Shown here: piece by piece, positions 1 through 3,107 of the stretch
How the letters are laid out: the number at the start of each line of letters is the position of its first letter
How positions within the stretch are numbered: the first letter of the stretch is position 1
Source of the DNA: Fredinandcohnia onubensis
Lineage (GTDB): Bacteria; Bacillota; Bacilli; Bacillales; Bacillaceae_L
Direction of reading: 5' to 3'
Assembly (NCBI RefSeq): GCF_031181385.1
Contig: NZ_JAPSKV010000003.1
Location: 1 to 64,000 of the forward strand
Length of the DNA stretch: 64,000 bases
Program-made: the position numbers and the translations under genes
The notes under the pieces: model-generated
What the model saw: only the letters and a program-made list of their open reading frames with translations
Databases searched by the model: none
What the model was told of the DNA's origin: nothing

Positions 1-120
1 AACCCTTTAGGGTTAGCCGGAAAAGTAGTGCGGTTGGCGAACTTTCAGAGCCCTTTGAAGGGCTGGCCAGTAACGAAGGCTTTCAGCCGCAGAACAAACC
101 ACCCGTTCTCACGGGTGGTT
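1..120 (+). mobile_element. 3' (right) end of a TnpB-type IS200/IS605-like element, omega-RNA-like scaffold; element truncated by window edge
   Basis: Series of hairpins: AACCCT-TT-AGGGTT (1-14), AGCCCT-TTGA-AGGGCT (49-64), GGCT-TTC-AGCC (79-89), and a terminal 10-bp stem AACCACCCGT-TCTC-ACGGGTGGTT (97-120). This layout resembles TnpB right-end/omega-RNA scaffolds. The tnpB ORF itself is not in the window. Confidence 0.65.
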
Positions 121-985
121 ATGATTTCGATTGTAATGTAAAGATGGAGATTTCAGGTTTTGCTAGAAATCGTAATGGAAGCCTAGTTGTTCCAAGTCCC
201 CGATTGACATAGAGGAACATTTTAGTAGCACCAATTTCATGGGCACCCTCATAATAGATACTTCCAAGTGGGGGAGTAATCAGTGGGCCTACAAATGGTA
301 GCTGAATTTGTCCACCATGACTATGACCAGATAGTTGCAAATGTGCTCCCACTTCAGCTGCTCGGTCAGCAATATCTGGCTCATGAGCAAGTAGAATTGT
401 ATAACTAGAAGAATCTACGTTTTGAAAGGCTTGTTCAAAACTAGGACGTCCAAGCATGACATCATCTAATCCCACAATGGTAATTTTTGAATCTCTCAAA
501 TAAATTTCCTTCGAACTGTTCATTAAGAGTGTAAAATCGGTTTGTTCCATTAGTTGTTTATATATCTCAGATCCGTAACCCCCATGGTCATGGTTACCGT
601 ATATGGCAAATTTCCCAAGAGGAGCTTCTAACCGTTTTAGGATCGGGATGAGATGATTGGCAGCTGCATATTTATTAGGCTCATCCATTAAATCTCCGGT
701 GAAAAATAGAAGATCCGGTTTGTAACTGTTTATTTGATCGACGAGGTGAGTTAGTTGTTCTAGTGTGTAATAATGCCCAACATGAGTATCACTAAATTGA
801 ACAATCCTTAGATTGTCAAAGTCTTTTGGAATAGTAGGATGTACAATTTTATGAGACGTGATATCTAGCTGTTTCGGCTCTAAATATCGGGCATACCAAT
901 ACCCGAAAGAGGACGCAATTGCAATTGTTGCTGTTGTGGCAAACGCCCGTTTAATAAATTGTCGTCTTGTATATTTTTTTGCCAT
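119..985 (-). CDS. ykuE: YkuE-like metallophosphoesterase with twin-arginine signal
   Basis: Start at internal Met giving MAKKYTRRQFIKRAF (RR motif). Metallophosphoesterase motifs FSDTHVG, GDLMD, YGNHDHG, LSGHSHGGQ. Followed by the ykuJ/ykuL/ccpC synteny. Confidence 0.85.
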   Translation of the reverse strand: MAKKYTRRQFIKRAFATTATIAIASSFGYWYARYLEPKQLDITSHKIVHPTIPKDFDNLRIVQFSDTHVGHYYTLEQLTHLVDQINSYKPDLLFFTGDLMDEPNKYAAANHLIPILKRLEAPLGKFAIYGNHDHGGYGSEIYKQLMEQTDFTLLMNSSKEIYLRDSKITIVGLDDVMLGRPSFEQAFQNVDSSSYTILLAHEPDIADRAAEVGAHLQLSGHSHGGQIQLPFVGPLITPPLGSIYYEGAHEIGATKMFLYVNRGLGTTRLPLRFLAKPEISIFTLQSKS

Positions 986-1292
986 CCTAACCGCCAACCT
1001 ATTCATTATAATCAATTAAAGCTATGAAACTAGTGTAGCATATTCATATTCACTTAAATTTTAAATATGTATTACAGTTGTAAACAATACTAATGACGTA
1101 AGCTGTTTTCTCATCTTGTATGTCAAAATTCATTCTTTTTTTCACTAGATTTATGAATTTATTGTTTGTATGTATATAAACATGTCAAAATCTGCAATTA
1201 TTTAACGAACGATTCATATCCACGGGCACTTGAGAACTTGTTAAAATGAGGGTACTTGTACATAACCAGTCACTTAATGAAAGGATGATAAT

Positions 1293-1934
1293 TTGAGCAA
1301 GCGAATCTCACTACTACTCATTGTCATTTGTTTAATCGGACTAGTTTCTGTTCCAACAGCTAAAGCGTCATCTAATCAGCCTCTTTCACAAGATGAAGTG
1401 TTCACATTCTTACAAGAAGCATTTCAGGCGCAATCTTCATTAACAGCTGAATTTCGTACCTATGAAGAAGTTCAGCAAGTTCTTGCTCCTTTTTTCCGTT
1501 CAGATTATGCAAACACATTTTTAGAGGAGAATTTAATAAAGGAAAAAGATGGGTATATTGTGTATGGATCAGATTTTGCCCTCTACTTTGTTCCGTTTTA
1601 TTCGTATACAGATGAAACCAAAATTTTATTCGATCAAAATAAAAAGAAGATTTTTGTCTATGAGTTATTTAAAGCCCCAGAGTCAGGTCCGGTTGCTTAT
1701 AAAGATCATTATGAAGTCATCACGATTGAAAAAATAAACTCAAACTGGCTTATTACAGATTTACAAATACAAGATGAAGCTCCCATTGTAAAAGATACTG
1801 CTACACAAAAGGAAACGATAAACCAGGATTCAAAATTATTAACATGGAATCCTTTTAAAACCACGATTTATTCTTTACTAGAAATGGATAATCGAACATT
1901 CACTCACTTTGGATTTTATAAAGGCATCTTCTAA
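1293..1934 (+). CDS. putative secreted protein (DUF3993-like)
   Basis: TTG start after AAAGGATG. N-terminal signal peptide MSKRISLLLIVICLIGLVSVPTAKA. Confidence 0.6.
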   Translation: MSKRISLLLIVICLIGLVSVPTAKASSNQPLSQDEVFTFLQEAFQAQSSLTAEFRTYEEVQQVLAPFFRSDYANTFLEENLIKEKDGYIVYGSDFALYFVPFYSYTDETKILFDQNKKKIFVYELFKAPESGPVAYKDHYEVITIEKINSNWLITDLQIQDEAPIVKDTATQKETINQDSKLLTWNPFKTTIYSLLEMDNRTFTHFGFYKGIF

Positions 1935-1940
1935 ATATCA

Positions 1941-1980
1941 AAGAAAAATAGAAATCCCATTTGGGGTTTCTATTTTTCTT
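1941..1980. terminator. bidirectional Rho-independent terminator
   Basis: AAGAAAAATAGAAATCCC-ATTT-GGGGTTTCTATTTTTCTT between convergent genes. Confidence 0.85.
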
Positions 1981-2926
1981 TTTGTAGGGAATCAATAATT
2001 CCCATCGCACAAATATCAAGGTCGAGGCTAAGAATTTCGTATACTTCATGATGTCTTGGAACATTCTTTTCATCAAGATAAGCTGTGATTTCCTTTAAAA
2101 TCAATCCTTTAATAAAATCTTTATGTTCACCTTCAGTTGCTGACGGATGTTTGATAAACGATTGCTTCCCAGCATTCACAAAAATAGGTAACCATAGATG
2201 GAGTTGATTGAACACTTCATTCACATTTGTTGACATCCCGTAATGGCCAAAATAAATAGCGGAGACACCAATTTCATTCACTTTTTTTGCAGATTCGAGC
2301 ATTGCATCAGGCCGGAATTGATTAGGAGATGTCGAAGGCAAATACAACTCAATATTTTCTTTGGCTAGTTCATGATAATAAATGCCGATTGTGTCACCTG
2401 TAAAAATTCCGTTGCTAACAGGGTCATAAATACTAAAATGATGATTGGCGTGACCTGGTGTATCGTAAAAAACAAGGCTACAATTCCTGCCAATTTCAAG
2501 CTCTTCCTGATCCGATTTTACAATTAATTTTTCCTCAGGAATTGGCAATATTGGATCAAACAAAGAATCAAAACTTTTCCCATATACAGTCTTAGCTCCA
2601 GCAATCAAACGAATTGGGTCACTCAAATGTCTTGCACCTTTAGGATGGACAACGACCTTTGCATTTGGACAATGCTGTAATAGGAGGCCAGCTCCTCCAG
2701 CATGGTCTAAATGAATATGGGTTACAATAATATACTGAACATCAAATGGATCAATATCTAGCTCTTTAAAAGCCTCTATAATGTACGGTATAGAAGGACT
2801 TGCACTTGTTTCAACAATTGTAATTTTCTCCTCTTTCATTATGTACGAACCTGTTCGAGCCTCTCTTCCCAAATCATGTGCGTCAATTAGAAATATTCGC
2901 TCATTTAGTTGTGTTATATTTCCCAT
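1970..2926 (-). CDS. MBL-fold metallo-hydrolase
   Basis: Metallo-beta-lactamase motif THIHLDHAGG, GHANHH, TGDT, FGHYG. Confidence 0.85.
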   Translation of the reverse strand: MGNITQLNERIFLIDAHDLGREARTGSYIMKEEKITIVETSASPSIPYIIEAFKELDIDPFDVQYIIVTHIHLDHAGGAGLLLQHCPNAKVVVHPKGARHLSDPIRLIAGAKTVYGKSFDSLFDPILPIPEEKLIVKSDQEELEIGRNCSLVFYDTPGHANHHFSIYDPVSNGIFTGDTIGIYYHELAKENIELYLPSTSPNQFRPDAMLESAKKVNEIGVSAIYFGHYGMSTNVNEVFNQLHLWLPIFVNAGKQSFIKHPSATEGEHKDFIKGLILKEITAYLDEKNVPRHHEVYEILSLDLDICAMGIIDSLQKEK

Positions 2927-3107
2927 GTTCTCCTCCCACTTTTTTATTGTTTCATCGCTAATTTTATTGTATTGTTACATAGTAGTTACTGTAAAGGTAT
3001 TGAAAGAAATATTCTGAATATATAAGTCCGTGAGGAAAATGGTCAATACCGTGGATAGAAGAGAGGATATTGCTCAATCCTAAAAGTAGAGAAAGGAGAG
3101 GCTACAT

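Follow-up and report, generated by a model that had tools for sequence, protein, structure and literature searches.

The right end of an IS200-group element at the ykuE gene of Fredinandcohnia onubensis, with a covarying 5'-3' UTR helix and insertion behind terminators

Few insertion sequences are as widespread and as quiet as IS200. By comparison with related genomes, the first 126 nucleotides of the window (the whole 64,000-nucleotide stretch analysed, which opens contig NZ_JAPSKV010000003.1 of Fredinandcohnia onubensis, here C39) are the right end of an ordinary IS200-group element of about 750 bp, carrying a Y1 transposase gene, tnpA, without tnpB. The group to which it belongs inserts directly behind intrinsic terminators, and the 3' UTR of tnpA contains an element that covaries with the apex of the hairpin in the tnpA 5' UTR. 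Both family-wide properties are well supported at the sequence level and apparently unreported in the searchable literature, where neither insertion at terminators nor 5'-3' UTR pairing of IS200 is mentioned in the open papers that could be consulted, most subscription papers lying outside the search.

A tnpA-only element at the end of ykuE

The feature at positions 1-126 (forward strand), which comprises the right end and the tnpA 3' UTR, was delimited from four contig ends of the assembly, the copies in relative G024 and the empty site in species G004 and G006. The 126-nt sequence was present in 22 of the 100 genomes searched, the host's own and those of relatives. In full copies (e.g., L088, L089, L092 and L097) it immediately follows the 3' end of an ORF for a Y1 transposase of approximately 155-160 aa, and the segment in this position in G024 is 94-95% identical to window 1-126. 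The distance from the left boundary to the right tip was 722-755 bp in 33 copies (median 747). A relative's TnpA matched Pfam Y1_Tnp (PF01797, 140.6 bits, 3e-41) as well as the solved ISHp608-type (IS608-type) transposases, and the columns of the HUH motif (H62, H64) and of Y126 are invariant among relatives. In F. onubensis itself, the left ends match Rfam STnc490, the IS200 tnpA 5' region, with 68 bits (gathering threshold 56). Subterminal hairpins, a 5' UTR that sequesters the Shine-Dalgarno (SD) sequence and insertion on the 3' side of a short, fixed sequence are all present, and both terminal inverted repeats and target duplication are absent. The element thus resembles IS200 of Salmonella and E. 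coli, likewise tnpA-only, of ~700-750 bp, with a Y1 transposase, subterminal hairpins, no target duplication and a 5' UTR hairpin hiding the ribosome-binding site, STnc490 being the 5' part of tnpA; it differs from enterobacterial IS200C in its Firmicute lineage and in a TnpA identity of ~61%.

The original prediction had recognized here a mobile-element end of the IS200/IS605 superfamily with a structured 3' region and a boundary inside the end of ykuE, all of which is borne out, but assigned it to a TnpB-type (IS605/IS1341) element whose 3' RNA would be an omega RNA taking its guide from ykuE. Such a reading has in its favor the common superfamily and a structured 3' RNA that ends exactly at the element tip, beside flanking DNA; indeed, Y1 TnpA, hairpin ends, single-strand transposition and a structured right-end RNA are shared with IS605, ISDra2 and IS608, which carry TnpB and omega RNA. 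However, no tnpB adjoined tnpA in any full copy inspected in relatives, so that a tnpB upstream of or overlapping the RNA, required in an IS605-type element with omega RNA, is absent. The host genome gave no match to the TnpB domain PF07282, and its single match to PF01385 was below threshold, in a broken OrfB-like gene on contig C9, the closest IS end being ~96 kb away; Pfam recognized neither half of this gene. Moreover, the left ends are of the STnc490/IS200 type and an Rfam search of window 1-3000 found no RNA family within 1-126. As the element is tnpA-only and its terminal hairpin is the one expected to bind the transposase, nothing points to a guide in ykuE. We consider the omega-RNA reading largely refuted already and extremely improbable: the end of a mobile element with structured RNA was correctly seen, and the wrong family member was named. 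The OrfB/TnpB-like gene of C9 (~96,000-97,600; L166 1081-2435, minus strand; L011) is split over two frames near a Y1 tnpA fragment and is distinct from the IS200 element at the window start. Contig C37 (12399-12756; L009, L010) holds an older relic, in which a decayed tnpA of IS200 type, interrupted by an in-frame stop, is accompanied by a right end related to that of the window.

The element abuts a ykuE-like metallophosphoesterase gene (119-1015, minus strand), whose last codon, TCA, and stop, TAA, are supplied by the IS tip; the stop codon lies at 119-121 and shares the last bases of the terminal stem, as had been noticed from the sequence. In the two closest species, G004 and G006, ykuE is uninterrupted (protein 98% identical), ends in LQSK* and is followed by a terminator hairpin. 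The empty site reads AGAGGATGGCCTAGGGTCATCCTCT..CGTTATT|TCGATTG, its left half corresponding to the end of C9 beside the IS left end and its right half to the window from position 127 onward. Junctions against empty sites place the IS boundary at 126/127, with an ambiguity of 2-3 nt. These relatives without the element uphold the mobile-element part of the original prediction; its suggestion of a domesticated gene end finds no place here, the IS merely swapping the native stop and adding one serine (LQSKS*). The IS now lies between ykuE and the native downstream hairpin. Empty sites equally precise in sister species were found for the C17/C10 and C39/C28 insertions, giving three precise sites in total, in which no bases were duplicated and none lost; for a fourth insertion (C25 to C17), only the left side could be matched. 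Taken as a whole, the insertion of an IS200-group right end between ykuE and the terminator of its convergent neighbor is very probably the correct explanation and the best of those considered.

Base 1 of the window is base 1 of C39, with nothing assembled upstream. Bases 1-126 are multi-copy and occur at four contig ends of the 4.26-Mb, 39-contig genome (C39, which is the window, C17, C10 and C28) in copies 99-100% identical that have 126-127 nt in common, every one of them at a contig end. A second stretch of similar length, common to the ends of C9, C25, the C17 tail and the C39 tail, represents the left ends of the element. The shared lengths would fit the overlap left by a k=127 assembler at a collapsed repeat. 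The element body is missing from the assembly, whose smallest retained contig is 1507 bp, so that an IS body of ~750 bp would have been discarded. A MITE or PATE was considered as the identity of the 126-nt repeat and rejected, because 126-127 nt is the length that a k=127 overlap would give and left ends, likewise truncated, are present to the same extent. Judging from the relatives and from the four near-identical copies, the F. onubensis strain probably has an intact tnpA in the unassembled body. From the IS200 ends and empty sites, contigs can be joined as C9-IS-C39 (the window), C39-IS-C28 and C17-IS-C10, and probably C25-IS-C17. Contigs C8, C16 and C19 break off within GCTTATGAAGGACTTTGCGCGATGGAC..-type tandem repeats.

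Right-end hairpins and the covarying 5'-3' UTR helix

Folded as forward-strand RNA, bases 1-145 reach -51.1 kcal/mol (z -3.1) and surpass 199 of 200 dinucleotide shuffles, which confirms the hairpin chain with its perfect 10-bp stem of the original prediction; the minus-strand fold has a z of -2.4 against such shuffles. The chain is conserved in an alignment of 39 sequences from relatives. All on the forward strand, it begins just 3' of tnpA with hairpin P1 (1-14, AACCC-TTTA-GGGTT), seen in the fold and in the alignment, and continues with P2 (49-64, AGCCCTTTGAAGGGCT), identified by folding, whose stem sequence differs among relatives (GTGC..GCAC, GCCC..GGGC), and with P3 (78-88, GGC-TTTCA-GCC), an RNAalifold consensus hairpin with compensatory changes at three of four pairs. 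The last hairpin (97-120, AACCACCCGT TCTC ACGGGTGGTT) has 9 consensus pairs with double changes in 4, and a terminator scan found a terminator-like site at 103-118 on the forward strand only. Hairpin 97-120 is expected to be the site that TnpA binds in single-stranded DNA, followed by the conserved tip TGATT; the tip as delimited from the junctions is ATGATT (121-126), and cleavage is predicted after ..ATT. Among approximately 50 relatives, the right tips mostly end in TGATT or TTATT. Searched in its own orientation, the 3' UTR matched no Rfam family. The two ends resemble each other, and accordingly the STnc490 model gave a weak hit (28 bits) to the reverse complement of an IS200 right end in locus L223 (1972-2089, minus strand).

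Between P1 and P2 lies the 3' UTR element GGTTGGCGAACT (32-43, forward strand), which is complementary to GGTTCGCCAACC, the apex of the tnpA 5' UTR hairpin at the opposite end of the IS; the base of that hairpin pairs with the SD sequence. Comparison among relatives shows that the two elements covary as a 12-pair helix, with co-changing variants such as GGTTCGCC/GGCGAACC, GGTTTCCC/GGGAAACC, GGTCTGCC/GGCAGACC, GGTTTGGC/GCCAGACT and AGCTTGCC/GGCAAGCT. Over 46 sequences, 88.4% of the cells are paired, against 16-48% when the registers of the 5' and 3' elements are slid, and double changes occur at 11 of the 12 pairs (53 cells vs 12.7 in shuffles; none of 500 shuffles as high). This count left out two misanchored rows (L240 and L241, alignment A3) and the gapped rows; when L240, L241 and the one-gap rows were retained, pairing over pairs 1-8 was 92.5% vs 79.9% in shuffles. 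Mapped onto the TnpA tree, pairs 1-8 would have undergone 31 branch-level double compensatory changes. The native duplex is also more stable than swapped ones (-17.0 vs -9.5 kcal/mol).

The complementarity could conceivably work in single-stranded DNA, joining left and right ends for synapsis, and not in the mRNA: the two elements share a strand and lie close to one end each, and the family transposes as single-stranded DNA. Yet about 10% of the kept pairs are G-U (G-T in DNA), a share more typical of RNA, so that pairing at the RNA level is favored. In addition, the 5' element forms the apex of a translation-blocking RNA hairpin already known from Salmonella IS200, where it hides the SD sequence (PMC12594629); the accessible passages of that paper make no mention of a 3' partner. 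Pairing in DNA therefore seems to us a possible but distinctly less likely account. In the favored reading, that of pairing in RNA, the helix may tune tnpA translation or mRNA stability, either in cis or through a 3'-derived sRNA that could act on all copies. It would add a layer of control to the best-known feature of IS200, its translation-blocking 5' hairpin, and offers a candidate function for the right-end hairpins.

Insertion behind intrinsic terminators

For the insertion sites, 80 close TnpA relatives were taken from Bacilli and Clostridia, and a hairpin followed by a T-run was seen immediately left of nearly every copy. An initial scoring by simple stems missed hairpins with long loops or bulges and was replaced by folding of the 45 nt on the 5' side of the IS, with a cut-off of -8 kcal/mol, at 53 distinct sites. 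The left flanks had a median of -17.5 kcal/mol, and 51 of 53 (96%) were at or below the cut-off. Controls, whose positions are non-independent, gave a median of -4.3 kcal/mol with 18% at or below -8 for 3'-intergenic positions (n=3185) and of -3.6 with 15% for T-rich 3'-intergenic positions (n=475). The IS began within 0-10 nt of the hairpin end at all 53 sites scored, a spacing that discriminates poorly when taken from MFE structures, since A/T arms reach into the T-tract. Left flanks are T-rich over the last 8 bases, the final TT being partly so by construction since TT served to place the boundary. Sites without a clear terminator were L090, L093, L213 and L241. Copies of enterobacterial IS200C on plasmids (L249, L250) are also located behind terminators, and so is a TnpA relative of 41% identity (L253). 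By these comparisons, the elements of Bacilli and Clostridia and enterobacterial IS200C are shown to insert directly behind intrinsic terminators, their left end turned toward the T-tract.

A preference of this kind might arise by survivorship, if the element needed only a T-rich target and intergenic insertions survived best where terminators are common. The targets are indeed T-rich, and intergenic insertions do less harm. Against this, strong hairpins occur in only 15-18% of the 3'-intergenic and T-matched controls vs 96% of the sites, the right flanks of the same insertions are at background (median -3.4 kcal/mol, 15%; left vs right paired p 2e-7, n=34), the close spacing holds throughout the scored sites, and the terminators were already present in the empty sites, before insertion. 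Survivorship is accordingly an unlikely explanation. In TnpB-bearing IS605-type controls, unlike the IS200 group, the distances to terminators are merely scattered, and in a boundary-free comparison the TnpB elements scored 6/11 vs 69/77 for the IS200 group (p 0.009), a contrast that with only 11 loci is supportive only.

As for the mechanism behind active insertion at terminators, TnpA, an HUH/Y1 enzyme of the single-strand 'peel and paste' kind, would bind the right-end hairpin at 97-120 and cleave after ..ATT. The element's own right end is a hairpin with a T-rich tail ending in ATT, which makes target mimicry a plausible rule: a terminator in single-stranded DNA, with its hairpin and T-rich tail ending in TT, may be chosen for its likeness to that end. 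This simple rule suggests that the enzyme is a compact single-strand transposase directed to terminators. By settling behind them, the IS would occupy DNA that lacks genes and is protected against read-through, as group IIC introns do, which would bear on the low-harm persistence of IS200. We give roughly even chances to the broadest proposal, namely that the whole IS200 group seeks terminators through right-end mimicry, that its mRNA is closed by a regulatory 5'-3' helix and that the 3' UTR constitutes a new RNA family without an Rfam model.

Group IIC introns insert directly 3' of intrinsic-terminator hairpins, with a consensus around TTGT (PMC7923331); they resemble the IS200 group in niche and target only, being ribozymes and retroelements as opposed to DNA transposons. 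Palindrome-linked insertion or recognition is likewise described for ISPpu9 and the TnpA-REP systems, although their targets, in the accessible parts of those sources, are REP sequences and not terminators in general. On a Klebsiella plasmid (L249, 786-1955), a tandem pair of IS200C was observed in which the second copy is directly behind the right-end hairpin of the first, a placement that mimicry would predict.
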